Below, piece after piece: positions 13,822 to 49,255 of a DNA stretch of 64,000 bases. This DNA comes from Miscanthus floridulus. Its lineage: Eukaryota > Streptophyta > Magnoliopsida > Poales > Poaceae. Below the pieces are notes generated by a model, which had not been told where the DNA came from, did not search any database, and saw only the letters and a list, made by a program, of their open reading frames with translations. The translations under genes were made by a program, and so were the position numbers. The stretch is taken from contig NC_089581.1 in assembly GCF_019320115.1 (NCBI RefSeq), positions 72,027,155 to 72,091,154 on the forward strand, read 5' to 3'. How positions within the stretch are numbered: the stretch's first letter is position 1; each line of letters starts with the position of its first letter.

Positions 13822-13835
13822 GCCCCTCCCCTCTT
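13822..13835 (-). other. polypurine tract of element B
   Basis: On the minus strand AAGAGGGGAGGGGC immediately precedes the 3' LTR, the expected place for plus-strand priming. Confidence 0.75.
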
Positions 13836-13844
13836 ATAAAAATC

Positions 13845-20480: not shown

Positions 20481-20492
20481 GCTCTGATGCCA
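20481..20492 (-). other. primer-binding site of element B
   Basis: TGGCATCAGAGC on the minus strand, two bases from the LTR end (20495), identical to A's site. Confidence 0.82.
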
Positions 20493-20494
20493 GC

Positions 20495-24868: not shown

Positions 24869-24885
24869 GGTGATAGGTAATCACC
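24869..24885 (-). promoter_or_regulatory. conserved LTR inverted repeat in C's left LTR
   Basis: GGTGATAGGTAATCACC with adjacent direct repeats ctaagcatgactaagcat; counterpart of 4210-4226. Confidence 0.5.
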
Positions 24886-26553: not shown

Positions 26554-26559
26554 TTTATA
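26554..26559 (-). promoter_or_regulatory. TATA box of C's left LTR
   Basis: TATAAA on the minus strand in the context cgcgcTATAAAgctc, about 790 bases into the LTR. The right copy is at 48458-48463. The following GC-rich, Ct-rich stretch would be the start of the transcript. Confidence 0.5.
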
Positions 26560-27345
26560 GCGCGGCCAAAAGAGCGAGGGAACGACATGCAGTGACCTCC
26601 TCGTGCCAGCACGAAGCCAAGGGTGGCCACAGGCGTGACTGGAAGGCCGGAGAAACAACGCCGGCGGTGGGGCGGTGGTCATGGTACTGTTCACAAGAAC
26701 TACAGAATTGCCACCGAGTTCATTTTACAAATTACTCCCAAATTTTCTAAAGAAGTTGAAAATCTCCAAAAATAAAAGTTGCTCAAAATTCAAAGTTCTA
26801 CAACTTTGCTTAAATAAACATTTCAAATTCTACCTCCATTTTGAAATTTGAATTTGGGGTGAATTTGAGCATTTGAATGATTTCAAAATTACTCCAAATT
26901 TTATATGTAAACTTTAAAAACTTTGAATACCAAAGTTGATCCTTATAAAATAAGCCTCAACTTTGCTTTTTGTCACACCCCCAAATTCCAAATGGATTTT
27001 GAAATAGATAGAAGGGGCAAAAAGGGACTTTTATAATTTGAATTTGAATTCAAATTTAACTTGTTTACCTTTTTACTTAACTATGATTTTTGACCATTTA
27101 CATGGCCCATTAGGGTTATTTGAGTCAATTGACACATGGTCTCACATGATCACATGAAAACTGACCCTTGTGGTCATGATCTTTATTTAGAGTTTTGGAT
27201 CACATCACATCACATAAAATAACAACTTATGAAATAAAGCTTATTTAGTGAATGCATTCAAAATTTTCTAGTTTATGAATGCTTTGCAGTGCATATGATG
27301 ATATGTCAAGTTTTAGTTCTAGGTCAAAACACCAGAGGTGTTACA

Positions 27346-28975: not shown

Positions 28976-30553
28976 TTATTGAATTACCTCTATACTCAAC
29001 TTTTCCATCTCTTGGCATAAAGTCAAACCCATTGTTCTTAATGTTAGACAATTGCAATGACTCTTTCGATTGAGGGCATCTGCAACTACATTTGCTTTGC
29101 TAGGATGGTAATGTACTTCCAAGTCATAATCCTTAATTAATTCTAACCATCTTCTTTGTCGCATGTTCAAATCCAATTGAGTAAAGATATACTTTAAACT
29201 CTTGTGATCTGTGTAAATATGGCACGTATTACCAAGCAGGTAATGCCACCAAATCTTTAGAGCATGGACAACTGCTGCTAACTCTAGATCATGAGTCGGA
29301 TAGTGTTCTTCATGTTGCTTGAGTTGTCTAGAAGCATAGGCAATAACTCGGCCTTCTTGCATAAACACACATCCAATACCAATACCTGAAGCATCACAAT
29401 AAACATCAAACGGCTTCTCGATATCAGGTTGGGCTAATATTGGTGCAGTGGTCAACAGTCTCTTCAAGGTCTGGAAAGCCTCTTCACAATCAGATGACCA
29501 GACAAACTTAACTCGGTTCTTCAACAATTTAGTTATGGACTTTGATACTTTAGAGAAATCTGGAATAAACCGATGGTAATACCCTGCTAATCCTAGAAAA
29601 CTCTGAACTTGATGAACTGTGGTTGGTGGTTTCCAATCAAGCACATCTTTAACTTTGCTTGGATTAATAGCAACTCCTTCAGCTGATAAGACATGTCCAA
29701 GAAACTGTACTTCCTTGAGCCAGAAGTCACACTTACTGAACTTGGCATATAGTTGATGTTCTCTTAAGCGGGTCAGGACAATTCTGAGATGTTCCGCATG
29801 TTCCTTCTTATTCTTGGAATAAACTAGGATGTCGTCAATAAACACCACTACAAACTTGTCTAGCTCAAGCATGAACACTGAATTCATCAGATACATGAAA
29901 TGAGCTGGGGCATTTGTCAAACCAAAAGACATTACCAAATATTCATATAACTCATATCTCGTGGTAAATGCCATTTTGGGAATATCTTTAGGCTTAATCT
30001 TGATTTGGTGGTAGCCTGACCTTAAATCAATCTTGGAGAAAACTTTGGCTCCAGCCAGTTGATCAAAAAGCAAGTCTACCCGAGGTAAGGGATACTTATT
30101 CTTAATGGTCACTTCATTCAACGGACGATAGTCAACACATAACCTCAGGGTTTTATCTTTCTTCTTCACAAAAATTGCAGGGCATCCCCAAGGTGATGAA
30201 CTAGGTTGAATAAATCCTTTCTCAATCAATTCTTGCAACTGAGTCTTCAGCTCGGCTAATTCCTTAGGAGGCATCCTATAAGCTCTCCGAGAGATTAGAG
30301 TTGTTCTAGGCTTTAACTCTATGTTAAACTAAACATCCCTATCTGGTGGTAGACCGGGTAAATCCTTAGGAAAAACATCAGGGAATTCACAAACTACCGA
30401 GATATCTCTAATCTCCTTGATAAAAGTTACACAAACTCTTTCCACTGTTCTCCTTAAGGTAGGAAGCCAGATAAGAAGCTGAGAATGACTATCAGGCAAA
30501 CTCACCCTTAATGTCCTATTCAAAACATCTATAATAGCCTTATGCTGATACAT
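28976..30553 (-). pseudogene. pol: reverse transcriptase and RNase H of element C
   Basis: A single open piece of 432 residues (28976-30274) carries RT with [83 protein letters not shown] (catalytic Asp pair intact) and [11 protein letters not shown]. RNase H has [43 protein letters not shown] and VVADALNRK. Residues upstream (30329-30553) contain [21 protein letters not shown], the usual linker before RT. RT itself looks intact, but stops on either side break the polyprotein. Confidence 0.92.
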
Positions 30554-30990: not shown

Positions 30991-32035
30991 GATATGGACA
31001 TTCCCTAGAGAAATGACCGGTCCTTCCACAATTGTAACACGGATAATTGTGACCCTAGGACGCTGGAGCATTGCCACCAGGAGCATTGGTCTATTGTGCA
31101 CTCGGGTAAGTTATAGTAGGATGGACATTTGACTGTTGCCTGGCTTGGAATTGCGGCGGACGATAAGGAGGACGATAATGGTTGACTAGATGATAGATTA
31201 TCTTTTGCCTCTTTTGATTTCCACCAAAGGATCTAGTTGGCACACTCTTCTTTTTCTTGATGTCCTTATGCTGCCTATACTTTTCCTCAGAAGCAACTGC
31301 AATATTCACTGCCTCATGATAAGTAACATTGGCACATGCAGTCATCATTGTCTGTAATTTGGTATTTAGACCTCTCATGAACCATTTCTTTTTCTTGGCA
31401 TCTATATTGACATGTTCAGTTGCATACTTTGACAGATGATTGAATCTACCCACATATTGCATAACCATTTGATCCCCTTGCCTCAAAGCAAGGAACTCAT
31501 CCAACTTCATGACCATCACCCCTTCTAGAATATAATGAGCTCTGAAGGCAGTACAGAACTTAGCCCAAGTTATTGGAATGCCAGCTGGCTACATAGCCAC
31601 TAGATTTGCCCACCAGGCACCTGCTGCACCTCTAAGTTGATGGGCAGCAAACACAGGTTTCTGCATCTCCATGCATGGAATAAGATTAAACTTCTGCTCC
31701 ATGGTCCGAAGCCAGTCATCAGCCTCCAATGGTTCATCTACCTTAGTGAACACTAGGGGTCTTGTATCTGTAAAATCAACATACGTAGCCTCTTGCCTAT
31801 TGTGATTGCGGCCATGGTTTCCTTGCACCACATTCTGATTATGCACCATATTCTGATTACTCTGAGCTATCTCTCGAAGCAGTCGAGCATTCTCTACGGT
31901 CACATGGACCAGTGCTGCTATAGCATCAGCTAAAGTCGGTGGAACTGGTGGTGGCTCAGGAACACCATCATCTTCATGTGAAGAACTAGCAATATCTGAA
32001 GCATGAGTACGAGGCATCTGTTCATAACTAACCAA
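30991..32035 (-). pseudogene. gag: gag of element C
   Basis: Begins MVSYEQMPRTHAS at 32035. The capsid region has EADDWLRTMEQKFNLIPC, RGAAGAWWANL, KFCTAFRAHYI, FLALRQGDQMVMQYVGRFNH and ANVTYHEAVNIA. The zinc knuckle near 31030-31070 is complete: CYNCGRTGHFSREC (CX2CX4HX4C). It is interrupted by TAG codons after WWANLVAM and PSAQ. It lies about 150 bases downstream of ORF1's stop. Confidence 0.85.
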
Positions 32036-32186: not shown

Positions 32187-32606
32187 TCAAACTTCATGAT
32201 CGGTATCCATGTCAGAAACATTTCTGCCTTCATCATCACTTTCATCAACCATCACTAATTCTTCAGGATCTTCTTCTTCTTCCTCTTCTTCAAGTTCATC
32301 ATCATCAGCAATGACGACACCGGGGTCCATTGCATCAGCTTGAGGTTCATGATTTGGATCCAGGAGGTTGCTTAGCCTATGGACTTCTTCATGCAAAGTA
32401 GTATTATGTTCTTCTAAATCTTCTACATAAAATTCTAACTCATGCGTTCTAGCTCTAGCTACATCTTCCCTATGCCAAGCCTCATTTCTTCCTTCCACCA
32501 TACGAACTAACATACGTTCGTAGTTCTTATGAGCGGTGGTGCTACACTTCAATTGCTCCTTTAACTTGCCCAGCCGGATGGTATCCAAGGCTCTATCCCT
32601 AGTAGC
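32187..32606 (-). pseudogene. ORF1 of element C, C-terminal part: coiled coil and acidic tail
   Basis: Continuation of the ORF1 that starts at 45176, separated from it by element D. With D and one target copy ignored the frame is continuous. It reads RDRALDTIRLGKLKEQLKC, a heptad-rich coiled coil (YVEDLEEHNTTLHEEVHRLS), then about 45 residues rich in Asp/Glu (ELEEEEEEEDPEEL, DESDDEGRN). The domain order of coiled coil then acidic tail is the same as in A and B. The acidic end resembles histone-binding acidic patches in composition only. Confidence 0.72.
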
Positions 32607-33427
32607 TGTTGATGCAAAAGTGGATCTGCAAACACAAAGGGCTAATACCCGAATCGATATCCAAAGCGTGCCAGTCGATTTGACCTGCTAATCGACAAGG
32701 ATGAAGATACGAACACTTTGGTCCTGACAACAGCGATACGCCCGGAAGTCACGGCCAAGAGGTGTTCACGCGGAACTCGAGAATCGCCGAAGGTCGTACT
32801 GAAACGATGCAGCTCGCCGAATCAATGAGAACTCGTAAAAAGAAAGAAAATATGCAAATTGACGAAGTCGCCGAAAAGTAAGTAGATGCAAATAGGAATA
32901 AAAGTTGGTTTTTATGTTGATTGATATATCTTTTTACATTGCCCCTTACTCCATATTTATACCCTGATCTAAAGAGACACAACCGAACACAACTAGGACA
33001 CCAATCCCATATCTTAAGGAAACACGTGACTCTTACACGAATCATACTCTAACTAATATAGAAAAGGAAATCAACTCCTATCTATTTCCCTGTCCGCCTC
33101 AATTACGATGGAAATCTCACCGTCCTCCTTCCCATCGGCATACTCCCTGTTTCATTGGCAGTAGTCCTCAAGCCTCCCTTCATCGGCATATTCCCTGTTT
33201 CATCGGCAGTAGTCTTCCAGCCTTCCTTCATCGGCATATTGACAACACCACCTCCAACCTCATCGGCAACGTCCGAGTCCAAATCAACCTTTCCATCGAC
33301 CATCACCAGCTATCGGCAACCATCTTTACAAGCTGGCTTTCATCGGTTATCAAAGTATCCAATAACTTTCCCCTTGCCGATTAGTCCACTCCGATTATTT
33401 TGACACGTGCAAAAAACGGTGTCAACA
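32607..33427 (-). repeat. 3' LTR of element D (821 bp)
   Basis: Plus strand TGTTGATGC to GTGTCAACA, with six-base perfect inverted ends. TATAAATAT on the minus strand at 32953-32961. About eight copies of catcggca or its complement cluster at 33130-33380, partly as degenerate 40-60 bp direct repeats (cttcatcggcatattccctg). Confidence 0.92.
32953..32961 (-). promoter_or_regulatory. TATA box of D's left LTR
   Basis: TATAAATAT on the minus strand; the equivalent site in the right LTR is 44546-44554, where it would drive gag-pol. Confidence 0.55.
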
Positions 33428-33441
33428 CATGCCCCCCAATT
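33428..33441 (-). other. polypurine tract of element D
   Basis: Minus strand AATTGGGGGGCATG immediately before the 3' LTR. Confidence 0.75.
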
Positions 33442-33857
33442 TCGGAGTATAAAACCATTAATGCTCCGAAATTTACTCCAGATAACGCTTGCCTTCACCC
33501 GATTACCGTAACTCATTCTCCAAGCCAAAACTTGATTTGTTATCAAATCCAATCAAATCTAATCTTGATTCACGCACTTCACTAAATATCGCACAATCAC
33601 CAACCACTCTTGCCCTGATTATGGTTAAGATACCGAAGCAATAACCCATCGGCAAGATCTTAACATGATAATGCTGCCATTTTCAAAATTAAAATATCCT
33701 GTATCGATATCCCTTCCAAGTCATGATTACTTGTCATCAACTCATCTGTACAATCCCCTGATTATCGTGCGAACAGTTACCATATCTTTCTGAACCGTCT
33801 CGACCTATATGCGCGCGATATAGAGATAAGTCCAAAATACCCTTACTCCGGGCGGCT
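33442..33857 (+). other. non-coding region upstream of D's antisense gene
   Basis: No ORF. It contains a GC-core inverted repeat, ctatatGCGCGCGatatag (33805-33823), and ends in a TATA box. Its position makes it the promoter region of the plus-strand gene and the 3' UTR of gag-pol at once. Confidence 0.5.
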
Positions 33858-33866
33858 TATAAATAG
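33858..33866 (+). promoter_or_regulatory. TATA box of D's antisense gene
   Basis: TATAAATAG in a context typical of plant promoters, about 150 bases upstream of the ATG at 34009, followed by a C/T-rich leader with ctctctccggcggcgactcc. Confidence 0.6.
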
Positions 33867-34008
33867 ATTTCTCTGGAACCCTCATTTTCTACTTTCAGCC
33901 TCCAATCCTTGGCATTTTCTCTCTCCGGCGGCGACTCCGACGAACAACCGCGCGACCTCAACCAAGAAGAACCCTCCTCCGGCGCTAACTTCAAGTTTCC
34001 TCAAGACC

Positions 34009-37000
34009 ATGGCCATCAACTTCGACGTTCCCGCGGTTCGCTCCACTTCCATTACCCTTTACTTTGATCTTCTCGCAAATTCATTCAGTTGGTGATTTTT
34101 CCTTTCTTCTATTCTCTGGATTCTATAACCTTAGGAACTGCGCAACAAATTAATTATCCCAACCGATCAGCCGCACGTCCAATGCCTCGGACCAATGGGC
34201 AATCCAGATCCAACCGATCTGATCAATGCAGAAGTTAACAGAATCCCCTTTAGAGCCCAAAATTTCTCTCTGAATTTGTGGAAAGACACATTCCGATCTT
34301 GGCCCAAAACCACCAAGGGGTGGAAAGATTGGTACTTGAGAGTTAATAGATCAATGCAAGTATACTGGGCAGAACGAAGATTAGACCAATGCATTAGGCT
34401 ATCTATTGCCGATATGCAGAAAAATGAATCAATGATAATTGCAGCTGCTTATTTCTGGTCAGACACGACCAATACTTTTATGTTTGGACATGGCCCAGCC
34501 ACTCCTACCCTTGCCGATATCCATATGCTTACTGGCTTGGACATCTCAACTGCCGATGAAGGCTCCATCTATGGTAGAAAGTCTGAATACAGGGTAAATA
34601 CCCGCAACATCGGCGGTTGGACAGGATACATTCAAGAATACCAGAAGACCGAGACAGTTAACCAGAGGGAACATGCCACATTCCTGAATATGTGGTTGGA
34701 AAAATTCATCTTCTGTGGTCGATCAGTAGGACCAACCAACGCCTTCCTCCCCGCAGCTGAACTTTTGGCTAATGGCGTAAGGTTTCCTCTTGGCCGATAC
34801 CTTCTGAGCTCCACTTATCATCTTCTTCATCAAGTGTCTCAGAAACTTTTGCTCGGCGAACCCATCGGCAACCTGGGAGGCCCGTGGTGGTTTATCAACA
34901 TGTGGCTGAATGCCCATATGCACAAACGTTTGCAATGGGACTTTTTTGCTCAACAATTCCCACGAGAAATTGCTGAAGACCATGTGCTTGGGGATGATGA
35001 ATCGGCAACACGCTCACCCCTCAATTTTGGTGAAGCCATAATTGTCCTTCCTGGAACAGAAGCCAACGAAGACCAAATCGGCAGATTCTTTCAAAGCTTC
35101 TACAATGGTCTTTCTCGTGATCATAGGGCCTGGGTGCCTTATATTGACGAAGAAAACAGATTCCCCCTTCTTTTCAACTTTGCCGATGACACTCTGAATC
35201 AAGATAATGAGCTCATGATGGCTATCATCACTCCCAGGGCAATTCCAGTAAACACATTCGGCAGCGGGAAAAACACCAACATTACGTATGAATTTTACAA
35301 CCCATCGGCAGTATCCCGCCAATTGGCTTTTGGGCAATTGCCGATCAAACTCTGCTTTGCCGATGTGATCAAACCTAGGGAAACAATCACCTGCGGAACA
35401 GATTGGAACAAGGTAGTACAACTCTCCCCTGATGCCGATACTACAGATGTTGATATATCCACCTGGACACCAATATCTTTCATCACCGAGTCATATAAGC
35501 AATGGTGGCAAGAGTGGAAAGAACAACTGTTCGCAACTTCTGCTCACACATATCGGCACATGATCGACCCTGAATACGCCATCCCTGACGATGCGGTAAG
35601 TTTCCTTTAACTCCCTTCTGCTTTTCCCTTCATATATCAGTAACCGATTCTCTTGTAACAGGTTAACAACCCAGCACCATCGGTGAGCAAAAGTGGGAAA
35701 CCCTTCAATCTCCGGCCTGTTTCCCCAACATCGCTGATTGGCTACAACGCTCCCACCTTAGCCGCTTTGACCCACCAGAAGATTCGTACCAAGACCATCA
35801 CTTCCAAGTCCAAATTGGCTACATCCAGGGCTACTCCATCGGCTGCTGCTACAACCTTGGTCAAAGCATTTAAGGTAACAACCTCGTTTATTTTTACTTA
35901 TGCCGATCACAAACTGTATTAACCTTAATCATCAGGGGGTAAGGGCTGCTACTGGATCGTCATCGGCAATTCCGCCGATATCAAGCACCACTTCCTTCGA
36001 TGAACCTTCAGAGGTAGCTTCTCGACTTTACATTTTACTTGTTAAATATCATCTCTTACACTTGTTTTGCAGCAACAATTGGGTACATCGGCAATCGTAC
36101 CAGATGTCCAAGCTTCACAACCAACAAGTGTCGATGCCCCCCAGCCCATCGTTGCCGATGCCCAAGCAAAACGCAAAGCTTCAACAGATACTGAAGCACA
36201 GCCAAAACGACAAAGGTCTATGCCGATCCCTACATCTGCCCCAATGTTATCGGCAGTCATACCTCAAGAGCCCACCATCGATGAAGTCACAGAGGATATC
36301 CCATCGGCAAGCTCAGCCGATCCCCCACACGACATACTCCAGGTTGCTTCCTCCAGTCAAGCACAAGAAATTGCCTTGAAACAGGTAAACCGATCAGCCT
36401 AGTTGATTTACAATACTCATACTTACCCCTAACTGATCTCCTTCTCTCTCTCTCAGGAACAAGACTCCCCGAACAGCCTATTTTCCTTTGCCATTGACAT
36501 TTCTGACTGACGATGGAGAGGAGACAAGTTCCTCCCTTGCACTGGGAACAATATCGGCAGAGACTAAATCCAAGTTGGAAGCCCTCCTGAACTTGCTACA
36601 ACAAGGTACCGCCCAGCTGGTAGATGACTCGGACCCCGCAAAGGCAATTTTCAAAACAATTCATGGCCAGGTCCCTGCCGATGTAGAAGAAGCACTTTTC
36701 CCAGCAGCTCACTTAGAAAGTCCGCCAACTGCAATATCAACGGGCTGCTCAGCGCATTGCCGATAGAGCAACTCAGGCTCAACTCAAAGAAGAGATGCTA
36801 CAACTGAAACAGATTGCCGATGAGAAGCACAAGGGCATCGGCAACTTGCAGACTTCGGGCGCTGAACTTAAGCAGAAAATCTTAGATTTATCAGCAAGGA
36901 AGATGGCTCTATTGGCTGAACTGAAGGAAGTTGAGGCAGCCTTAACTCATGCCCAACAAGAAGAAAACCAGCTACCCGATGCCATCAAGACCCTTCAGCA

Positions 37001-37154
37001 AGAAAGAGATATCCAAGCTCGCAAAGCTTTAGCCATGAAGAAAAAACTCAAGCCTGTGGAGGGTGCCGCCGATGACGATATCAAGGAAATGGAGGAAGCC
37101 GACCAGATTCGCCTGCGTGCGATATTAGCTATCCAATCCTTGTTGAACGTGTAA
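34009..37154 (+). pseudogene. antisense gene of element D: plant-mobile-domain-like, NLS and coiled-coil protein
   Basis: Predicted exons: 34009-34035, 34135-35595, 35662-35874, 35936-36013, 36073-36384, 36457-37154. All introns are GT-AG and phase 0. Exon 1 gives MAINFDVPA and joins in frame to ELRNKLIIPTDQP. Residues about 100-330 have a plant-mobile-domain pattern (AAAYFWSDTTNTFMFGHGP, TPTLADIHMLTGLDIS, GGPWWFINMWLNAHMHK). Exon 5 has a bipartite basic cluster (AKRKAS, PKRQRS), a likely nuclear localisation signal. The end is a coiled coil (KEEMLQLKQIADEKHKG, LAELKEVEAALTHAQQEENQ). Two single-base shifts in exon 6 (near 36510 and 36720) break this copy. The full product would be about 930 aa. 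The gene converges with integrase, 86 bases apart. Confidence 0.8.
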
Positions 37155-37240
37155 TCTTATTTATTGTATCGGCACTTTATGAGACATTGACATCCTTGCA
37201 TAATTCTAACCGATAGTACTGTTATCGGCACCTTATACTT
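37155..37240. other. gap between convergent genes of D
   Basis: Contains two tatcggcac motifs and the 3' ends of the antisense gene and pol. No terminator could be defined. Confidence 0.5.
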
Positions 37241-39050
37241 TTATGCATCTATCCAGATACTAGGGTAATATTTCTTTAAATATTTTCCATTTATCGCTCT
37301 GGGAAACACAACCCCTTCGAGGGTTTCTAAAATATATGCATTACCAGGAACAGACTGATTTATCCGATATGGACCTTCCCAATTAGGAGACCACTTTCCA
37401 AACTTTGAACTTTTAGTCCCAATCGGTAAAATCAATTTCCAGACCAGATCTCCATCGGCAAACTCTTTTACTTTCACCTTCTTGTTATACCATCTAGCTA
37501 CTCTTTTCTTATTTTCTTCGATACTAACTAAAGCCCTTAACCGATGACCCGCCACATCTTCCAACTCATCCTTCATAAGAGTATTATAATCATCGGCTGT
37601 CAGCTGATCTTGAGAACGTATTCGTCTAGAGCCAACCTTAATTTCCCAAGGCAATACTGCATCGTGTCCATATACTAACTGATAAGGCGTTACTTTGGTT
37701 GCACCATGACATGACATCCGATATGACCACAAGGCTTCATTTAATACTGTATGCCACCTCCTAGGATTTTCTTCAATTTTGCGCTTAATGAGTTTGATGA
37801 TCCCTTTGTTAGAAGCCTCAGCTTGACCATTAGCTTGAGCATAATATGGAGAAGAATTTAAAATTTTAATTCCCATACCTACAGCAAACTCATCAAATTC
37901 TCCTGATGTAAACATAGTGCCCTGATCGGTAGTGATAGTCTGAGGAATACCAAATCGGTAAACAATATGCTCTTTCACAAAATCAATCATATTGACCGAT
38001 GTCACCTTTTTCAAAGGAATTGCCTCAACCCACTTTGTAAAATAATCGGTAGCAACCAGGATAAATTTATGTCCTTTACTCGATGGCGGATAAATCTGAC
38101 CAATGAGATCAATAGCCCATCCCCGGAACGGCCACGGTTTGATTATAGGATTCATAGCCGATGCAGGCGCTCTTTGAATATTACCAAACTTTTGACACCC
38201 CTGGCATCCTTTAAAATACTTAAAACAATCTTCAAGAATAGTCGGCCAATAGTATCCATTCCTTCTGATCATCCATTTCATCTTGAAAGCCGATTGATGT
38301 GCCCCACATACTCCTTCATGAATTTCACCCATCAAGCTTTTCGATTCATCATTGCTGACACATCTAAGTAAAACTCCATCTATAGTTCGATAATATAATT
38401 CATCATCGAGGAGCACATATTTGGTAGCTTGGAACCTTATACGTCTCTCAACCTTTCTATGTGGATCCTTTAAATAATCGACAATCTCTTTCCTCCAGTC
38501 ATCGGTATCAACTGCCGATGCTAGCACTTCCTGAATAGGCTGATACCCTGAAGCATGCTGAGCTAGTCGATTAGCTTCCTCATTATGCAATCGAGAGATA
38601 TGTTCAAGACGAAAACCTCTAAATCCTTTCAACAATTGCAAACATCTTTCATAATACGAAATCAAAGCTCCACTTCGGCATTCATAACTTCCAGCCAATT
38701 GATTTATAACTAGCATAGAATCACCAAAGATTTCAACAACATCGGCACGTATCTCCTTCAGCAATTCTAACCCTTTTATCAAGGCTTGATACTCAGCTTG
38801 ATTGTTTGTTGCTGTAGCAACAATCGGCAATGAAAACTCATACTTCCTTCCCTAAAGGTGAAATCAACACAATGCCGATACCTGCTCCTTCACCACATGT
38901 GGACCCATCGAAGAAAAGTGTCCAGGGAGCAATCTCCAGAAGAGTCCACTGTATTACAATGCTGAGTGACAAAATCAGCCATCACTTGCCCTTTAACTGC
39001 CTTAGTTGATTCGTAACGTAGCTTCAAATTCTGATAATGCTAAAATCCAT
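37241..39050 (-). CDS. pol: archaeal-type RNase H and integrase of element D
   Basis: The upstream part (about 38850-38930, another frame) reads WTLFFDGSTCGEGAGIGIVL, giving the first catalytic Asp. After a single-base shift, a 529-residue open frame (37241-38830) continues with ATNNQAEYQALIKGLELL, EIFGDSMLVINQLAGSYECR and HNEEANRLAQHASGY. Integrase follows: zinc-binding CQGCQKFG, catalytic AIDLIGQIYPP, TTDQGTMFTS and NGQAEASNKGIIKLIKRK, so the DDE triad is intact. The end has WNKKVK-like basic residues and GPYRINQSVPGNAYILETLE. No chromodomain is seen, consistent with Tat. Confidence 0.9.
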
Positions 39051-39059
39051 TTGCCGATT

Positions 39060-40481
39060 CTACCACTTAATATCGGCATCGACAAGCATATACTTGACCA
39101 CATCGTCTTTGCATATGACCGTACATTCGGCAGATAACAAATAATGCCTTAATTTGACACAAGAAAAGTATAAACACAGACACAATTTTTCGATGGCCGA
39201 ATACCTCGTCTCAGCATCCACTAACCTTCTGCTCAAATAATAAATAACACGTTCTTTCCCTTCAAATTCTTGAATAAGAGCTGAACCGATAACTGTATCA
39301 TCAGTTGACAAATATAATCTGAAAGGCTTTCCATGTTGAGGTGGAACTAACACTGGAGGATTTGATAAATATTTCTTAATTTCATCAAGGGCTAATTGCT
39401 GTTCAACTCCCCATATGAATTCCTGATCAGCTTTTAATTTAAGTAGTGGGCTGAAAGCCTTGATCTTACCCGACAGATTAGATATGAATCTTCTAATGAA
39501 ATTAATCTTACCGATCAAGGATTGCAATTCAGTCTTATTGGCAGGAGCAATCACCTTGTTAATTGCATCAATAGACTTCCTACTGATTTCAATGCCTCGC
39601 TGATGCACCATAAAACCCAAGAATTGTCCTGCCGATACACCAAATGCACATTTATTAGGATTCATCTTCAATCCATGCTTCCTTGTGCACTCCAGTATCT
39701 TTCGCAGATCGGCTAAATGTGCTGTGATATCTCCAGACTTAATCACTACATCATCAATGTAGATCTCCACTAATGTGCCGATGTATTCATGAAAAATAAA
39801 GTTCATAGCTCTTTGATAAGTAGCACCGGCATTTTTCAAACCAAATGTCATGACTATCCACTCGAACAACCCCACATGACCTGGACATCTGAAAGCAGTC
39901 TTGGGAATATCTTCCTCAGCCATGAATATTTGATTGTAACCTGCATTACCATCCATGAAACTGATAATTTGATGTCCAGCCGCAGCATCAATCAACAAAT
40001 CAGCAATCGGCATTGGATAACCATCCATTGGTGTGGCTTTGTTGAGATTCCTGAAATCAATACAAACACGAAGTTTTCCATTTTTCTTATAAACAGGAAC
40101 CACATTAGAGATCCACTCTGCGTATCGACATTGCCGAATAAACTTTGCTTCAATTAATTTAGTTATTTCGGCCTTAATGTCAGGAAGTACATTAGGGTTG
40201 CATCGGCGCGCTGGCTGCTGATGTGGCCGAAATCCAGATTTGATAGGTAACCGATGTTCAACTATCGATCGGTCTAATCCAGGCATCTCAGTATAATCCC
40301 AAGCAAAACAATCTTTATATTCTTTTAACAAATCTGTTACTCGCTGCTTACACTTGGAATCTAACTTAGCACTAATAAAAGTAGGTCTTGACCTATCACC
40401 ATCACCAATATCTACTTCTACTAAATCATCTGCCGATGTGAACCCTTGACCTAATTTTCCATCATCGGCAAACCTATCCAT
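39060..40481 (-). CDS. pol: reverse transcriptase and first RNase H of element D
   Basis: An open frame of 473 residues. RT motifs: FAWDYTEMPGLDRSIVEHRL, AEWISNVVPVYKKNGKLRVC, IDFRNLNKATPMDGYPMP, FMDGNAGYNQIFMAEEDIPK, WIVMTFGLKNAGATYQRAMN and EIYIDDVVIKS (catalytic Asp pair). RNase H: LYLSTDDTVIGSALIQ, VIYYLSRRLVDAETRYSAIE, and YMLVDADIKW before the stop. The block is shifted in frame from the protease by a stop at 40481. Confidence 0.92.
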   Translation of the reverse strand: MDRFADDGKLGQGFTSADDLVEVDIGDGDRSRPTFISAKLDSKCKQRVTDLLKEYKDCFAWDYTEMPGLDRSIVEHRLPIKSGFRPHQQPARRCNPNVLPDIKAEITKLIEAKFIRQCRYAEWISNVVPVYKKNGKLRVCIDFRNLNKATPMDGYPMPIADLLIDAAAGHQIISFMDGNAGYNQIFMAEEDIPKTAFRCPGHVGLFEWIVMTFGLKNAGATYQRAMNFIFHEYIGTLVEIYIDDVVIKSGDITAHLADLRKILECTRKHGLKMNPNKCAFGVSAGQFLGFMVHQRGIEISRKSIDAINKVIAPANKTELQSLIGKINFIRRFISNLSGKIKAFSPLLKLKADQEFIWGVEQQLALDEIKKYLSNPPVLVPPQHGKPFRLYLSTDDTVIGSALIQEFEGKERVIYYLSRRLVDAETRYSAIEKLCLCLYFSCVKLRHYLLSAECTVICKDDVVKYMLVDADIKW

Positions 40482-41341
40482 TAAAACTCCTCTTCAGAAC
40501 CGACTGCTTGGATCGGTGGAATTTCATAATCAGCAACTCTAAGGAACTCTTTTTCCCAAGCTTCTCCTGATATGCATTTAGTCCGCTCATAAGTATCTGA
40601 TTCTGCCGATGCGATGATATAAGAAGAATCACCAGGGACGACCTCAATCTTATCCCCAATCCACTGTACGAGGCATTGATGCATTGTAGAAGGAACACAA
40701 CAATTAGCATGAATCCAATCCCTCCCTAGAAGCAGATTATATGCACCTTTGCCGTTAATAACAAAGAACGTCGTTGGCAAGGTTTTGCTGCCGATGGTCA
40801 ATTCAACGCACACTGCCCCTTTAGCCGGTGACACATTGCCTTCAAAATCTTTCAACATCATATCGGTTTTGGTCAAGTCTTGATCTCCCTTACCAAGTTT
40901 CCGATACATCACGTAAGGCATAATATTAATCGCAGCCCCTCCATCAATAAGTACCTTAGACACAGGCTGCCCATCAACTCTGCCCTTCACAAATAAAGCC
41001 TTAAGATGCTGTCTCTCGTCATCGGTAGGTTTCTCAAAAACAGCCATCATTGGATCTAGTGTTAACTGAGCTACTTGATCAGAGAGAACAACTTCTTCCT
41101 CATTATCAGATAGTGCCAAAAACTCCATCGGCAACATGAATACCATATTAACATCTGCCGATGGACCCTTATTTTTGTGTTTTACCTGCCACTGCTGATG
41201 ACCAGGGCCTTTCATTGGAGGAATTTTCCTCTTGGTATAAATCCTCCTGACGCTCACGTTGCATCCTCCTTCCTCTGCGTCTTTGTCAGACCCTCTGGGC
41301 ACCATCGAGGAAACTTGGTTTTCCAAACCGGCTGATAACAA
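40481..41341 (-). CDS. pol: aspartic protease region of element D
   Basis: Open frame of 286 residues. The active site reads VSKVLIDGGAAINIMPYVMY, the DGG variant common in Tat proteases. Downstream are TTFFVINGKGAYNLLLGRDW and IHANCCVPSTMHQCLVQWIG, the flap and C-terminal signatures. It is preceded by the linker KGPSADVNMVFMLPMEF. It overlaps the gag-distal frame at 41254-41625 and sits one frame away, so an indel or frameshift joins them. Confidence 0.85.
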   Translation of the reverse strand: MLSAGLENQVSSMVPRGSDKDAEEGGCNVSVRRIYTKRKIPPMKGPGHQQWQVKHKNKGPSADVNMVFMLPMEFLALSDNEEEVVLSDQVAQLTLDPMMAVFEKPTDDERQHLKALFVKGRVDGQPVSKVLIDGGAAINIMPYVMYRKLGKGDQDLTKTDMMLKDFEGNVSPAKGAVCVELTIGSKTLPTTFFVINGKGAYNLLLGRDWIHANCCVPSTMHQCLVQWIGDKIEVVPGDSSYIIASAESDTYERTKCISGEAWEKEFLRVADYEIPPIQAVGSEEEF

Positions 41342-41554
41342 GTCCTAGTTGATTCTACACGACGTATATTAGGGTCCCTGTAGAATATTTCCTCATCGGG
41401 AACTCTTGCGTTTGCCATCTCCTCAAGCTCCTCTTGATTCCTTGGAAAATATCCAGCGCGTTTACCAAGCCTCTCATGTACACTAAGTCTGCCCCCCAGC
41501 CGATCATGCACTGATGCTCTGCCTCTGATCGGCTCATTGATAGACAAACCCTGA
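41342..41554 (-). pseudogene. gag-protease linker of D in a shifted frame
   Basis: The frame 41254-41625 continues gag past its stop with RGRASVHDRLGGRLSVHERL, NQEELEEMANARVPDEEIFY and TRTCYQPVWKTKF. A single-base change near 41600 separates it from the main gag frame. Confidence 0.6.
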
Positions 41555-44161
41555 TTACCATGTTGAAACCTTCCTTTCTGAGCGATTGACTCCGTAATAA
41601 CCATTACACTCAGGGCAATTTTCAACAGTTGGCAATTTAATACCTTCTTCCCAGCAATGGATGAAAAACGGACATCTCCAATGATCTTTATGTCGATTCC
41701 ATTCTTCCTGACGTCTCACTTCTTGCTGTTGTCGATATCGGTCATTACGTTGACGCCAACCCTCCTGCTGCCTTCGATGAGTAATTACAATGCCAGGTCT
41801 AGGAGGATTTTTGGAACTACTGCTTTCTCCTAGCAAACCCTTACTTTTTGCATCATCGGTAGTTATCCGATGTTGGGGGTCCACTGACGCGTTTTTCTCA
41901 GCAGCCTCTGACGTTAATACCTTGGTCTTTCCTTTGGCATCCAACATATTTGCTGGAAAAGGGTGTTGATCAATTTTCATCGGCTTCTGGGCCTTGGAAG
42001 TACCAAACTTAATCCTCCCAGATTCAATAGCCGATTGTAACTGTTGCCTGAATACCTTGCACTCATTTGTACTGTGTGAAGTTGCATTGTGCCATTTGCA
42101 GTACAAGATCTTCTTCAACTCTTCTGCCGATGGGATCACATGATTAGGTGACAGCTTAATTTGGCCCTCTTGAAGCAGAAGATCAAATATTTTATCGGCC
42201 TTGGTGATATCAAAGGTAAACTTTTCTGGCTCTTTTTGACCAAAGGGACATGATATCGGCTTTTTATTCTTAACCCACTCAGCTAAGCCGATAACTGGTT
42301 CTTCATCAGAGTCAGAATCTCCTACTTCTTCAACAAATGATACCTTTTTACTCCAATTCTTTTTAGGTTCAAAAACCCTAGTATCTTGATCAGAGATCCT
42401 TTGCACAAGATGACTGAGGCTTTCAAACTCCTGAGAAGCATATCTGTCTTTAAGATGTGGCAATAACCCTTGGAAAGCCAGATCGGCAAGCTGCCGATCA
42501 TCCAGCACCAGGCTGTAGCACTTATTTTTTACATCTCGTAGCCTTTGTACAAAGCTTTCTACCGATTCATCATTACGCTGTCTCAATTTTACTAAATCGG
42601 TAAGCTTCTTTTCATGGATTCCAGCAAAGAAATACTTATGGAATTGTTTTTCTAGATCAACCCAAGTAATAATAGAATTTGGTGGTAATGAAATGAACCA
42701 TGTAAATGCTGATCCAGACAAAGATGATGAAAATAATCGAACTCTTAATTCATCTCTGTTAGCTGCCTCTCCACATTGAATAATGAAGCGATTGACATGT
42801 TCCATTGTTGATGTATCATCTTGCCCAGAGAATTTAGTGAAATCCGGTACCTTGTACCGATTTGGGAGAGGAATTAAATCGTATGCAGGAGGGTACGGAG
42901 TCCGATAAGAATACGTATTGACCTTGGGCTTTATCCCAAACTGATCCTTCATAATTTCTGCTATCTTATCGGCCCAAAAAGCATCAGCCTCCTGCTGACG
43001 AACTGGTTGAACTTCTACCGGAGGTACCTGCTGACATCCCTCCACATATCTTTGTGGCCCACGATCTCCAGCAATCGGCATATTTGCCGTTACTTGTGGT
43101 CCATTAGCCTGTTGGAAAGGATTCATCGGCTGAGCTGCCGATGCTTGATTCTGGAAACCAGCTTGCATATGACCTTGTTGAATCCCTGCGACCTGCTGAT
43201 TTCGCTGAACTGTATGTTGAACAGGTAATTGTCCTGACCAATCATTATTAGAACTCATCGGTACAAAACTTACCGATGGCTGGTAATTTGCTGATATTGT
43301 TGGATAATTATAACCGGTTTGAGGCATGAACTGAACCCCAGTTTGACTCATAGCAGGGGCTTTCTGCTGCATCGGCAGTAAGCTCGCCGATGGATTTGAA
43401 TTGAATGTTTGAACCATAGGCATCTGGAAACCTCCTGGAGTTGGTTGCACAGAAGTAGCTGCGGCATATTGAGGCACTTGAGCCATCGGCGAAACGGCCG
43501 ATGGTATAGGAGCTCTCCCTACTGCATCAAACACTTGAGGTAATCTAGGATTGAAAACAGATGACTCCGGAGGCATACCATATCCCCACCAATTAGTAGG
43601 AATCTGGCTATTCTGAGACACAGGGCCTGACATAGCTGATGCCGATAGATCTGTATTAAGCTGAATTCGCCCTCCTGGTAGTACCTGATCTGATCGTATC
43701 GGTGTAGATTGAATATTAGGTGAACCTGCCGATACTGGAGGGGAAGAAACTTCTGTACCCACAACGGCCGAAGGAGCCGATAGAGTTTTGACAGATGTCG
43801 GCTCTGGTTGATGATAGGCAGGCCCGACGTAATGTGGTGCCACTTGTCCCTCTTTGAGAGTTCGAACCACAGCATTATGAACAGTATTGGACAGCACATT
43901 GGAATGATTAATCAAAGCATGATTTACTGCAGAATTAACCATCTCTTGAAGTTTACCAGGATTGGAGTCAAAGGTAACCTGCCGAGGCAACGGCAAATCT
44001 TGCTTCTGGATGACTTGTCCACTCTTGTTCAAGCTAAACGATCTCAGACAAAGCTGCTTATATTCTTCTACAGCCTTTTCCATAGCCTGCCTCTGTTCTT
44101 CCTTGAGATCTTCTTCTGATACTGCGATAATGTTCCCTGCATCGATCTCGGGATTGAACAT
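41555..44161 (-). CDS. gag: gag polyprotein of element D
   Basis: Start chosen at ATG 44161 (MFNPEIDAGNIIAVSEEDL), just after the primer-binding site; the longer frame to 44227 runs into the LTR. The N-terminal half is Gln/Pro/Met/Ser-rich low complexity (about residues 80-390). The capsid core has MEHVNRFIIQCGEAANRDEL, RVRLFSSSLSGSAFTWFISL, PNSIITWVDLEKQFHKYFFA, LVKLRQRNDESVESFVQRLR. Cys/His clusters follow: CKWHNATSHSTNECKVFRQQ and WRCPFFIHCWEEG with VENCPECNGYYG. About 870 aa. Confidence 0.9.
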   Translation of the reverse strand: MFNPEIDAGNIIAVSEEDLKEEQRQAMEKAVEEYKQLCLRSFSLNKSGQVIQKQDLPLPRQVTFDSNPGKLQEMVNSAVNHALINHSNVLSNTVHNAVVRTLKEGQVAPHYVGPAYHQPEPTSVKTLSAPSAVVGTEVSSPPVSAGSPNIQSTPIRSDQVLPGGRIQLNTDLSASAMSGPVSQNSQIPTNWWGYGMPPESSVFNPRLPQVFDAVGRAPIPSAVSPMAQVPQYAAATSVQPTPGGFQMPMVQTFNSNPSASLLPMQQKAPAMSQTGVQFMPQTGYNYPTISANYQPSVSFVPMSSNNDWSGQLPVQHTVQRNQQVAGIQQGHMQAGFQNQASAAQPMNPFQQANGPQVTANMPIAGDRGPQRYVEGCQQVPPVEVQPVRQQEADAFWADKIAEIMKDQFGIKPKVNTYSYRTPYPPAYDLIPLPNRYKVPDFTKFSGQDDTSTMEHVNRFIIQCGEAANRDELRVRLFSSSLSGSAFTWFISLPPNSIITWVDLEKQFHKYFFAGIHEKKLTDLVKLRQRNDESVESFVQRLRDVKNKCYSLVLDDRQLADLAFQGLLPHLKDRYASQEFESLSHLVQRISDQDTRVFEPKKNWSKKVSFVEEVGDSDSDEEPVIGLAEWVKNKKPISCPFGQKEPEKFTFDITKADKIFDLLLQEGQIKLSPNHVIPSAEELKKILYCKWHNATSHSTNECKVFRQQLQSAIESGRIKFGTSKAQKPMKIDQHPFPANMLDAKGKTKVLTSEAAEKNASVDPQHRITTDDAKSKGLLGESSSSKNPPRPGIVITHRRQQEGWRQRNDRYRQQQEVRRQEEWNRHKDHWRCPFFIHCWEEGIKLPTVENCPECNGYYGVNRSERKVSTW

Positions 44162-44173
44162 ATTGATTGATTG

Positions 44174-44191
44174 GTCCCACCGGGCGTGCCA
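44174..44191 (-). other. primer-binding site of element D
   Basis: Minus strand TGGCACGCCCGGTGGGAC, seven bases from the 5' LTR end. This differs from the tRNA-Met sites of A, B and C. The cognate tRNA was not determined. Confidence 0.7.
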
Positions 44192-44198
44192 AAAGATG

Positions 44199-45019
44199 TG
44201 TTGATGCAAAAGTGGATCTGCAAACACAAAGGGCTAATACCCGAATCGATATCCAAAGCGTGCCAGTCGATTTGACCTGCTAATCGACAAGGATGAAGAT
44301 ACGAACACTTTGGTCCTGACAACAGCGATACGCCCGGAAGTCACGGCCAAGAGGTGTTCACGCGGAACTCGAGAATCGCCGAAGGTCGTACTGAAACGAT
44401 GCAGCTCGCCGAATCAATGAGAACTCGTAAAAAGAAAGAAAATATGCAAATTGACGAAGTCGCCGAAAAGTAAGTAGATGCAAATAGGAGTAAAAAGTTG
44501 GTTTTGATATTGATTGATATATCTTTTTACATTGCCCCTTACTCCATATTTATACCCTGATCTAAAGAGACACAACCGAACACAACTAGGACACCAATCC
44601 CATATCTAAGGAAACACGTGACTCTTACACGAATCATACTCTAACTAATATAGAAAAGGAAATCAACTCCTATCTATTTCCCTGTCCGCCTCAATTACGA
44701 TGGAAATCTCACCGTCCTCCTTCCCATCGGCATACTCCCTGTTTCATCGGCAGTAGTCCTCAAGCCTCCCTTCATCGGCATATTCCCTGTTTCATCGGCA
44801 GTAGTCTTCCAGCCTTCCTTCATCGGCATATTGACAACACCACCTCCAACCTCATCGGCAACGTCCGAGTCCAAATCAACCTTTCCATTGACCATCACCA
44901 GCTATCGGCAACCATCTTTACAAGCTGGCTTTCATCGGTTATCAAAGTATCCAATAACTTTCCCCTTGCCGATTAGTCCACTCCGATTATTTTGACACGT
45001 GCAAAAAACGGTGTCAATA
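44199..45019 (-). repeat. 5' LTR of element D (821 bp)
   Basis: Same length as 32607-33427. The last bases read gtgtcaaTA instead of gtgtcaaCA, a single change, after which the target copy gtagc follows. TATAAATAT at 44546-44554 (minus strand). Confidence 0.92.
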
Positions 45020-45176
45020 GTAGCCTATGCTAACTCTGTTGAAAGCCTTTGTATCCCTGCCTGGGGATCAGGCCTAGAGCTACTACTGCTAGCACCATCA
45101 TTTCTAGGGGCAAGTTGATGATGAAGAACTCCTTTAGGTCCAACAGACTTACGGGGAGTTACCTTGGTGCAAGCCA
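45020..45176 (-). pseudogene. ORF1 of element C, N-terminal part: histone H3 tail-like peptide
   Basis: ATG at 45176. The first residues are MACTKVTPRKSVGPKG. Without Met they align to the histone H3 tail with no gap to position 14, keeping A1, T3, K4, T6, R8, K9, S10, G12 and K14; H3's QLA (19-21) recurs one residue further on (HHQLAPR). Cys2 is TGC, one CpG-type transition from an Arg codon. A Ser-rich, disordered-looking linker follows. A TAG interrupts the frame four codons before the D insertion, where Gln is expected. The remainder is at 32187-32606. The whole protein would be about 190 aa. Histone mimicry is inference from the alignment. Confidence 0.7.
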
Positions 45177-45563
45177 TACTGTAGGAAGCAAGATTAATCC
45201 AATTAAGACCATTAGATCAAAATCTAAAGAGCAGCCAGGATGGATTATATAACTCAACCCAAACTCACTACCCAACCCAGACTCAGGGTGAAGGAAGTAA
45301 CAAGTGAATTAATCATGATGCATGAATCATTCTTACGAACAAAAACATCAAAGCTATAAGGTACATAACTACAGTTATTTATATATAGGGCATAATAAGA
45401 TTACTACTCCACCACACAAAACCTTTTTAATCAATTAAGGAAAGGTGAGAATGAAATAAGATAAGTCAGAAGCAATTTGGACCAAATTAACAGGTAATAG
45501 CTAGTTGTCCCAAATCATTTTGAAGTTTTTGTTAAACAATACAACAAAGACTTTGTAACGATC
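45177..45563 (-). other. untranslated leader of element C
   Basis: Roughly 390 AT-rich bases between primer-binding site and ORF1. No ORF or recognisable structure seen. Confidence 0.5.
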
Positions 45564-45575
45564 GCTCTGATACCA
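45564..45575 (-). other. primer-binding site of element C
   Basis: TGGTATCAGAGC on the minus strand, the standard initiator tRNA-Met site, three bases from the LTR. Confidence 0.85.
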
Positions 45576-46900
45576 TTCTGTGGCAGAACTTCCAAAATTA
45601 TAGGACCCACATGCACCTATCACTGTCCAACGACCATTGACAACTATGCATATGTTCCTGGTAACTTAAAAAGTATGTCGGGTGTCCTCGGGGAACCCTG
45701 AATCATCCACGATTTCCGAGCAGGATCACATTATAGAGTCATTGCAGTATTACAACATTTATTCAAATATATACATCAGAGTAAATTAGCGGAAGTCTTA
45801 TGATAACATAGTTTACAAACCAGTTGTTTCAAACCTTACAAACTAAGTTCGATAATTATTACAAACCATAGTAGTAGTGGAGTGGCATAATTAACATAAA
45901 CAGAACACACAAAATAAACATCCTGCCCAACGATCACACATTTACTTATCATCTTCGACCTGAACAACGGTCGTCCAAAATAGACCTGCTCATGAGGCTC
46001 ACCTACAACAAGGGTCAATGAACCCTGAGTATAAAAGTACTCAACAAGACTTAACCAAAATAAAAACTGAGAAGACTCAGGAATGTAGGCTCAGGGATTC
46101 AAGGTATGGCTTTAGCAATAATCAAAGTTCTTTTGCGTAAAAGCTCTTTAACAAAATTTTAGTATTTTAACATTTAAACTTCATCAGAACCATATATGAA
46201 TCCGCCATGATCCGTAATGAGATCATGAACTTCATATCAAACTCCTTCTCAAATCCAGCTCACATTTTAGTTATTAACTACGATGATGAACAGTGAGCTT
46301 AGTCTCCATAACCGAGGAGCAATGACGATTCAAACCAGTTATAACTCAGCTGGGGATTCCAGACCACATGACATATGCTAGTCCCCAACTTACATATATC
46401 AACCTACCCTTGGGTCTCCTAAAATAGGAACGGGTCCGCACCACCCGAGAATATAGTACTCCACCAATCCGGCCCATTGCCACATGGGTACATGCTATTC
46501 CCGCCATCTCTCCACTCCTAGTGCGCGATTAGCCATTCTTGTAATAGAATTGCCAAGTTAAGGCTTACCGGAGTATATGGTTAGTACTAAAAAGTCTCAT
46601 CTCATGCAATTCAACAACGGACGAACCTTAATCGACATAGGCGGAAAGAAGCCGCTCACAAGACCTCCATGTCTTGTGGCTCTCACACACCGAGTCTGCC
46701 CGGTCTAGATTTATTACTTCACATGTTCATATCTCATGATAACATAAGTAACCAAAGATCTATTTGAAACTCATAGGTGACAGGTAATCACCCGGCTAAG
46801 CGTGACTAAGCATAACTAGGCATTTACGAATAAAACTGTTAACAAGGTAAATATGGAAAAACAAGGTTGGTAATGCACCAATTAGGTTTCCACTTGACTT

Positions 46901-47131
46901 CTAATCACTTAATGCAGTATATAAAAGCAAAAGCGATAGAATTTGTAAAACACAAGGTAGGGTTAAATGCATCCGGGGCTTGCCTTCGTTGATGGAAAGG
47001 TTAGGTTCCAACGACGTTCCACAAGTATCTGATCCGACCTCAACAGACGGATTAACCTCCTCCGCAACTTGATTAACTACCACGTGTTCACCTTCGTTCA
47101 CTACACATAGTAACAATGCTATGTTTACCAT
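46901..47131 (-). CDS. LTR-embedded short acidic ORF of C, 76 aa, unknown function
   Basis: Open in this LTR only; the left LTR and F share a TAG at one codon. It contains NEGEHVVVNQVAEEVNPSVE and ends in the NEGKPRMHLTLPCVLQIL stretch, which parallels LKGKPRSILSLLVFYKIL in the B-family LTR frame. Initiation within a long transcript leader is uncertain. It may not be translated. Confidence 0.35.
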   Translation of the reverse strand: MVNIALLLCVVNEGEHVVVNQVAEEVNPSVEVGSDTCGTSLEPNLSINEGKPRMHLTLPCVLQILSLLLLYTALSD

Positions 47132-48457
47132 GATGCGGAATATGAAACATGATGCTCGATAATGTATGAAAAAATTAACAATTCAAATACAACTTTCCTT
47201 CGTGGTACAGTTGCAAGTCAAGCTTAACTACATCTTTTTCATAACACATACATCACTTGCCAAGGATCATTATCAACTAATGACCCAAGGTCATCACTCA
47301 ATCCAAAATTTCAAACAAAACCTAAATCATTAAAGGTTACTATTTGCTTTTATGAATTAATTATTTAATTCAAAATTATGAAATAAATCAACTTATTCCA
47401 ATTGAGCTCAAAATTTTTGTAAAGATTCATCACATGATAAGTAAGTGGTAAAACAAATTTCATAATTTTTGGATAACAAATTGAGCCTAGAAAAATGATG
47501 GAAATCCATTTATTAATTAATTGAGCAATTTTCATCACACTCAAAAATTACTGTAAATCAATATTTCATATTTTTCCTAAATAGTATTCATCATCGGGAG
47601 TTCACACAAAAATTTTCATAATTTTTGGAGCTATAAATAAATCTACACAAAAATAACAAAAATAGACAATATTCATTCAATTCTGAAAAAGGAAAAATTA
47701 TTTTCAAACTGCACAGTCGCTGACATACGGGACCCACTTGTCATCCCTAACCTTTGGCTTTGACCGCGACAACGACGGTGCTGACCGACGCTAACTCACC
47801 GACGGTCCAACGGCGACGGCCAAGGTACCAAAATAATCACCATGACTAGGCGCATCGATTGAAGGCATTAACTTAAGCTATTACACCATGAATCAAGGCT
47901 GACGCTAGCCTTGGCGGATGCAATAGCATGGCGGCGCTATGCCGGTGAAACAAGGCTGGCAGAGATCAAACAAAAGGCATAGGAAGGTTCAGCAGCTCAT
48001 CACGATCACGTTGGAGCAAAGAACGAGACTAGAGAAGCTACGGTGACATGGTTCGATGGTGACAGCGATCACGGCAGAGCAGACTTCATCGACGGCGGTG
48101 TTCCAGTGACTGCAGTGGGCAAAACAACCAAGCAAGAATGGATTAAGCACCACAACATCAAGACGAAGCTATAGAGACAACAAGCAAGGGCAACGGCTCA
48201 TTGGATGACGCTGGCCGTGGTGAAACGGAATTTCGGGTGAGGTCACCGGCCGCGAGGAAGAAGGGTCGCTAGCGGCGGTTCTCGGTGGACTCAGACAACC
48301 ACAGTTGGTGGGATGGGTTCGCAAGGAGGAGATGAAGCTGGAACACTACTTTGCCGAGACTAGCTTGCGCTAAGGAGGCGAGGGGAGCTCGACGGAGCTG
48401 AGGCGGCGGCGTCGGGAAACAGAGGAGAGAAAGAAAAGCCGATGACGGTGTCAGAGC

Positions 48458-48463
48458 TTTATA
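48458..48463 (-). promoter_or_regulatory. TATA box of C's right (5') LTR
   Basis: TATAAA on the minus strand, counterpart of 26554-26559. As part of the 5' LTR this is the copy that would have driven C's genomic RNA. Confidence 0.5.
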
Positions 48464-49255
48464 GCACGGCCAAAAGAGCGAGGGAACGACACGCAGTGAC
48501 CTCCTCGTGCCAGCGCGAAGCCGAGGGCGGCCACGGGCGCGACTAGAAGGCCAGAGAAACAACGCCGGCGGTGGGGCGGTGGTCGTGGTACTGTTCACAA
48601 GAATTACAGAATTGCCACCGAGTTCATTTTACAAATTACTCCCAAATTTTCTAAAGAAGTTGAAAATCTCCAAAAATAAAAGTTGCTCAAAATTCAAAGT
48701 TCTACAACTTTGCTTAAATAAACATTTTCAAATTCTGCCTCCATTTTGAAATTTGAATTTGGGGTGAATTTGAGCATTTGAATGATTTCAAAATTACTCC
48801 AAATTTTATATGTAACCTTTAAAAACTTTGAATACCAAAGTTGATCCTTATAAAATAAGCCTCAACTTTGCTTTTTGTCACACCCCCAAATTCCAAATGG
48901 ATTTTGAAATAGACAGATGGGGCAAAAAGGGACTTTTATAATTTGAATTTGAATTCAAATTTAACTTGTTTACCTTTTTACTTAACTATGATTTTTGACC
49001 ATTTACATGGCCCATTAGGGTTATTTGAGTCAATTGACACATGGTCTCACATGATCACATGAAAACTGACCCTTGTGGTCATGATCTTTATTTAGAGTTT
49101 TGGATCACATCACATCACATAAAATAACAACTTATGAAATAAAGCTTATTTAATGAATGCATTCAAAATTTTCTACTTTATGAATGCTTTGCAGTGCATA
49201 TGATGATATGTCAAGTTTTAGTTCTAGGTCAAAACACCAGAGGTGTTACAGATGG

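Follow-up and report, generated by a model that had tools for sequence, protein, structure and literature searches.

The question raised by this locus is whether a reading frame at the 5′ end of a plant retrotransposon begins with the tail of histone H3, and what such a tail might do for the element. In the window, that is the whole stretch of 64,000 nucleotides of Miscanthus floridulus DNA that was analysed, the frame on the minus strand opens with an ATG at 45177–45175 and reads MACTKVTPRKSVGPKGVLHHQLAPRN; the start given in a preliminary description of this DNA, 45176, is one base lower. The H3-like N-terminus comprises 26 codons (45100–45177, minus strand). Ungapped alignment with residues 1–14 of H3 bears out the nine matches of the preliminary description (A1, T3, K4, T6, R8, K9, S10, G12, and K14; 9/14), and the QLA of H3 does recur one residue further on. 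The frame is not ORF1, as it was labelled there, but the one known in the literature as ORF0 or 5′aORF: what lies in the window is the decayed beginning of this additional 5′ open reading frame of a Tekay-type chromovirus.

The host element, here called element C, lies on the minus strand between a 5′ LTR at 45579–49250 and a 3′ LTR at 23663–27345. These LTRs are 95.5% identical, which gives an age of ∼1.8 My with a rate of 1.3e-8, and with a length of ∼3.7 kb they are as long as those of the group of Tekay-type elements with ORF0 (∼3 kb or longer). On the same strand follow the primer binding site TGGTATCAGAGC (45564–45575), a gag region (31091–32035) with a Retrotrans_gag match within 31091–31519 and no such match in 31589–32035, the reverse transcriptase with RNase H (28976–30274; Pfam RVT_1 and RT_RNaseH), and the C-terminal part of the integrase with a group II chromodomain (27520–28234), a region that is interrupted by a stop in this copy. 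This chromodomain is identified by its motif only, EEATWESE located after the integrase part; EEXTWEXE is given as the Tekay motif of group II chromodomains in part of an earlier study (PMC3350952). The extra reading frame is situated between the 5′ LTR and gag in element C, and open copies of it exist elsewhere in the genome.

Two related elements are found in the same window: element A (8932–23589, minus strand, LTRs 94.6% identical) and element B (2489–8931, plus strand), which is interrupted by element A. The 5′ reading frames of both have a different N-terminus and an acidic end, and no H3-like tail was seen in them. The fragment of the element B frame has no Pfam match. Shared descent of the ORF0 frames of elements B and C is not claimed, as the B fragment gave E-values of 1.6 and 0.003 in single comparisons.

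The ORF0 copy of the window is split by a nested LTR retrotransposon of ∼12 kb (32607–45017, minus strand; LTRs at 44199–45017 and 32607–33425, 99% identical), which is younger than its host. Piece 1 (45018–45177, minus strand) carries the H3-like tail and a Ser-rich linker, and piece 2 (32187–32606, minus strand) a probable coiled coil and the acidic tail. An in-frame TAG at 45025–45027 limits the product, counted from the ATG, to a maximum of 50 residues. With this stop and the nested element the copy is dead, and we reject the reading of this ORF0 as an intact gene. Open copies elsewhere code for ∼188 residues, in which the H3-like tail (1–26) is followed by a linker rich in Ser, a stretch that is probably a coiled coil, and an acidic end. 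The preliminary description had proposed this arrangement for the rest of the frame. The acidic tail is indeed plain (net charge −19 in the database protein P0022, whose H3-like tail is strongly basic with net +8), the frame in the window is not continuous, and the coiled coil is suggested by Pfam matches below the cut-off and a crude heptad count only. Disorder and a coiled coil in ORF0 are predictions from the sequence.

In order to see how the tail behaves in other copies, the 2.68-Gb assembly with its 19 large contigs was surveyed. With a DNA query containing the tail there were 2,005 first-look candidates; 40 of them were scored, and all 40 matched. The protein P0119 as query gave 9,593 loose first-look candidates; among the 150 scored, 102 were stop-free by hand count and the best identity was 74%, so that P0119 itself probably stems from elsewhere. 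We examined 109 loci, namely 39 from the tail query, 30 from the P0119 query, and 40 further rows of the P0119 query picked as stop-free. The intact copies that the preliminary description had proposed to look for do exist: in 75 of these loci the frame is open over 175 amino acids or more, and all 75 carry the tail and start M[AT][RH][TA]K.[TMI]P.KS. Since 40 loci were picked as stop-free, 75/109 does not tell how frequent intact copies are. Copies from the tail query were chosen by likeness to the tail of the window and those from the P0119 query by likeness over the whole ORF0, tail included; blind to H3 positions 1–9 were only the search with piece 2, one other protein search, and a separate sample of 30 copies. 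Some loci are redundant: L024 and L049 denote one place, as do L018 and L052, and L118–L147 include several places already present in L009–L047.

Among 65 distinct open haplotypes, K4, K9, S10, G12, and K14 are present in all 65, A1 and R2 in 64 each, T6 in 63, T11 in 51, and T3 in 24, with Ala in the other 41. Arg is found at position 8 in 53 haplotypes, His in nine, Cys in two, and Tyr in one. Free variation at K4, R8, K9, and S10, named beforehand as the finding that would speak against the proposal, is not what the copies exhibit. A7 and G13 of H3 are replaced by Pro in 65/65. Five T3A copies on four contigs (L058–L062) have an identical ORF0 protein sequence, which suggests a recent multiplication of this subfamily.

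The exceptions follow a pattern. All 12 at R8 are due to transitions in the CpG that the codon contains, and Tyr requires two of them. In the 38 copies most similar to that of the window (39, one being left out for a frameshift), R2 is kept in 33, R8 in 21, and K4 and K9 in all 38. The codon of position 2 is CGC in 33 of these copies and TGC in the window; Cys2 is a decayed Arg codon, one CpG transition away as the preliminary description had proposed, and R2C and R8H are CpG decay. Premature stops in L009–L047 recur at the same Gln codons (positions 38, in 9/38, and 42, in 5/38, and also 50 in H3-style numbering), which fits the expectation for CHG-methylated DNA. The losses of R2, R8, R18, and T6 and the stops in CAG codons are mostly C-to-T or G-to-A changes, as expected of methylated, silenced DNA. 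In a tree built without the tail the losses of R8 and R18 are confined to tips or clades of two to three copies. Thus, K4 and K9 (65/65) and R8, which is Arg-1 relative to the substrate lysine, are retained in the lineages that multiplied, the R8 losses being tips or small clades.

The resemblance to H3 is a property of the family and is stronger in many members than in the window copy. Protein P0022 starts MARTKKTPRKSTGPKGVPRHQLAPRN and has 11/14 identities to H3 1–14, the maximum of the family, followed by PR.QLA after one inserted residue; P0119 and the genomic copy L009 have 10/14. At a fixed N-terminus, 9/14 identities or more would arise by chance with a probability of 1.6e-8 under generic composition and of 2e-6 under that of the P0022 tail; for 11/14 or more the corresponding values are 1.2e-11 and 4e-9. 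PRKQLA, matched at 5/6, adds a factor of ∼2e-5 to this estimate, and none of 1,000,000 permutations of the P0022 tail reached 11 or more identities. When the first 26 residues of P0022 were compared with 177,635 distinct PDB sequences, H3 was the best match (E 5.6e-4), and the 60 matches shown of 129 were all H3. The tail of the T3A subfamily also retrieved H3 first (E 4.1e-3). The 26 and 50 residues of the window copy retrieved nothing from the PDB sequences.

Relatives were also found without reference to the tail. Piece 2 as a query (141 amino acids, H3-like part excluded) had 214 matches among database proteins with E-values up to 0.001. All 12 proteins of at least 150 amino acids among the 120 matches listed have the H3-like tail, in P0062 from position 6 onwards. 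In P0125, P0126, and P0132 the predicted protein lacks the residues up to position 9. Compared with P0119, P0128, and P0135, the tail of P0022 is kept at 92%, 84%, and 84% and its residues 47–187 at 68%, 67%, and 69% (P0128 and P0135 after trimming of 20 upstream residues); the resemblance persists in relatives that differ in about one third of the remaining protein. Tail identity exceeds body identity in 20/21 pairs of the seven full-tail proteins, which are not independent pairs. P0131 deviates, as its tail is less well kept than its body in six of seven comparisons. In plasmid, viral, and prokaryote collections no relatives of ORF0 were confirmed. This abundant family of plant retrotransposons probably belongs to the grasses.

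Is the tail itself under selection? Outside the tail the dN/dS ratio of the 65 haplotypes is 0.17, which marks ORF0 as a genuine protein under selection. For the tail the ratio is 0.33 (bootstrap 0.11–0.73), which is not below that of the rest, and a constraint in excess of the rest of ORF0 does not appear within the genome. Replacements on internal branches showed no significant deficit, with P 0.24 for nine sites that match H3 (0.055 when R8 is set aside) and P 0.27 for all 25 codons of the tail, so that selection specific to the H3 sites within the genome is not shown by this test. In the sample drawn blind to positions 1–9 (30 copies, one of which could not be parsed) K4 and K9 are kept in 29/29, and 22 of these 29 copies carry stops. 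As stop-bearing copies keep both lysines, their invariance in the genome is partly a lack of mutation and, taken alone, is not evidence of selection. The comparison between distantly related proteins is the better evidence for conservation of the tail.

Where might the tail come from? We read nine intron-containing H3 genes in the genome, which we take to be of the H3.3 type. Their first coding exon, the end of which was placed at the GT donor, comprises Met and residues 1–23, and this span, Met and H3 1–23, is covered by the likeness of ORF0. At the DNA level, ORF0 copy L048 shares the 15 identical bases ATGGCTCGTACCAAG with the H3 genes L150–L152 and the identical stretches AAGTCCACTGGA and CAACTTGCC with the H3 gene L153. 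Of the 16 codons shared by L048 and the intron-containing gene L153, 12 are identical, versus at most five with any of nine intronless H3 genes. Under the codon usage of ORF0 this sharing has a P of 0.004, best of nine allowed for, and for L058 of the T3A subfamily (12/15 codons identical) P is 0.0007. L009, of the subfamily of the window, has no signal (P 0.42). With H3.3 codon usage as the null the values are 0.08 (L048), 0.04 (L058), and 0.89 (L009). A comparison of the flanks of the tail with H3 genes reached P<0.05 in 3/27 downstream and 0/27 upstream cases; this similarity is unconvincing, and homology of the flanks was not found. Compared with most H3 genes, synonymous sites are close to saturated (pS 0.45–0.91 for three copies and 18 genes), so that descent is unprovable from DNA. 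The alignment to H3 genes, which the preliminary description had suggested for separating capture from convergence, favours capture of the first exon of an H3 gene on the basis of the exon span and the codons of L048 and L058, and the codon evidence is mixed. We consider it probable that an ancestor of the family long ago captured the first coding exon of an H3 gene with introns (H3.3 type), from which the tail stems.

The surroundings of the start codon may bear on this. A pyrimidine-rich stretch ending in CAG, similar to a 3′ splice site, lies at 45178–45192 (minus strand), with the CAG one base ahead of the ATG in the context AGTATGG. This strong start context is present in 73 of the 75 open copies, and the leader of ∼400 nt contains 5–13 upstream ATGs in the 17 copies measured. 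The CAG, the strong context, and the upstream ATGs suggest that an intron is perhaps removed from the ORF0 leader. Among the nine intron-containing H3 genes the ATG directly follows a CAG in three. A further step, which we put forward tentatively and hold to be somewhat less probable than its opposite, is that the H3.3-type first exon was captured, perhaps together with a splice acceptor, and fused to a coiled-coil, acid-tailed protein, giving a many-tailed pseudo-nucleosome that would engage host readers and writers of H3.

What the sequences show is the resemblance to H3, its presence in every open copy examined, a constraint on the coding sequence of ORF0, and the persistence of the resemblance in the subfamilies that multiplied. 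As the likeliest role of the tail we suggest that it serves as a bait for host H3 readers or writers, a function for which we see an even chance. Removal of the initiator Met is expected before Ala and would leave a free A-R-(T/A)-K N-terminus followed by a (P)R-K-S site. An oligomer would display several tails beside the acidic end. PHD-type readers could bind the bait at A1-R2-K4 and SET-type enzymes at K4, R8, and K9, and as a consequence silencing of the element would be weakened or its particles would be tethered to chromatin. Oligomerisation, binding, and benefit to the element are steps that we infer. Against the bait count the Pro at positions 7 and 13 in all 65 haplotypes and the change of T3 to Ala in 41 of them. 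Of 123 human PHD fingers screened, 31 bound the H3 N-terminus, as stated in part of one report (PMC6979384), and the relevant part of another (PMC2797608) describes H3R8 as the main contact of the H3K9 enzyme GLP after the substrate lysine, with H3K4 also touching the enzyme, and reports that G9a tolerates no substitution of H3R8. The same source adds that this Arg-1 matters little for Dim-5 and is not critical for all H3K9 enzymes.

The tail could instead be a basic, disordered peptide for nuclear import or nucleic acid binding, in which H3 readers and writers have no part and the likeness is inherited or convergent. We regard this as rather unlikely. Its strongly basic character (net +8 in P0022) beside an acidic end would be well explained, as would the conservation of the residues up to 26 as a block instead of the K4 and K9 sites alone, and the dispensability of T3. 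A plain import signal, however, requires neither A1 nor such an order of residues, and the match is anchored at the exact N-terminus and runs in order through 11/14 positions and PR.QLA in P0022, a degree of identity absent from the million permutations. Much the same figures bear on a resemblance that arose by chance or convergence, with neither a history nor a role connected to H3. The near saturation of synonymous sites against most H3 genes and the missing codon signal of the L009 subfamily would be compatible with it, but the probabilities for at least 11/14 (1.2e-11 and 4e-9 with generic and own composition) are small even when many proteins are allowed for, and PRKQLA contributes its further ∼2e-5; we consider such an origin improbable. 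Just as improbable in our view is that the K9-methylated tail is bound by the chromodomain of the element's own integrase and couples ORF0 to integration. Element C does carry a chromodomain-like stretch with the Tekay motif. Pro at position 7, however, is unfavourable for chromodomains, and the Pro at positions 7 and 13 may spoil binding of this kind. In addition, the cage of group II chromodomains is missing its first aromatic residue and usually its third, and part of the same account describes their ligand as not known (PMC3350952). The element's own chromodomain is a less likely partner of the tail than the host proteins to which the bait would be directed.

If the proposed binding to readers or writers is true, an endogenous retrotransposon of plants would be mimicking a histone against the very pathway that silences such elements, and a high-copy plant retrotransposon would carry a histone-mimic anti-silencing or targeting factor. 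Publications have described ORF0 of Tekay-type elements in grasses since 2012 at the latest, and no credible function has been put forward for it; an H3 tail at its exact N-terminus makes a function directly and cheaply testable. ORF0 itself is thus already published, and its resemblance to H3 is without a report that we could find: searches of the open literature listed none on a retrotransposon-encoded H3 tail, and a 2025 review of host factors that mentions aORFs does not use the word "mimic".

The closest known elements are Retrosat2, RIRE3, and RIRE8 of rice and their relatives in sorghum and maize. According to the main text describing them (PMC3485330), these grass elements have an extra ORF0 upstream of gag-pol and LTRs of ∼3 kb or more, as is the case for element C, which we place beside them by these features. 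That main text does not contain the word "histone" and reports no resemblance to H3; its structure-based guesses at the function of ORF0 are metabolic enzymes. The additional 5′ reading frames of Tekay elements in sunflower occupy the same position and have long disordered parts and a predicted nuclear location (PMC11728184). On the other hand, they are ∼400 amino acids long and, by this account, without amino-acid similarity to the grass frames, and "histone" and "mimic" are absent from the main text of this study.

A parasite protein with an H3-tail-like peptide, comparable to ORF0, is NS1 of influenza A H3N2, as summarised in a section of a review (PMC12937675). The NS1 mimic is located at the C-terminus and has a reported function, whereas the likeness of ORF0 lies at the exact N-terminus of a plant retrotransposon protein.

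Proteins of the VANC type bind DNA. In the available part of their description (PMC10398659) they act sequence-specifically and an H3-like tail is not seen; nevertheless, these proteins of the Arabidopsis VANDAL transposons are anti-silencing factors encoded by a plant transposable element and as such a possible functional parallel to ORF0.
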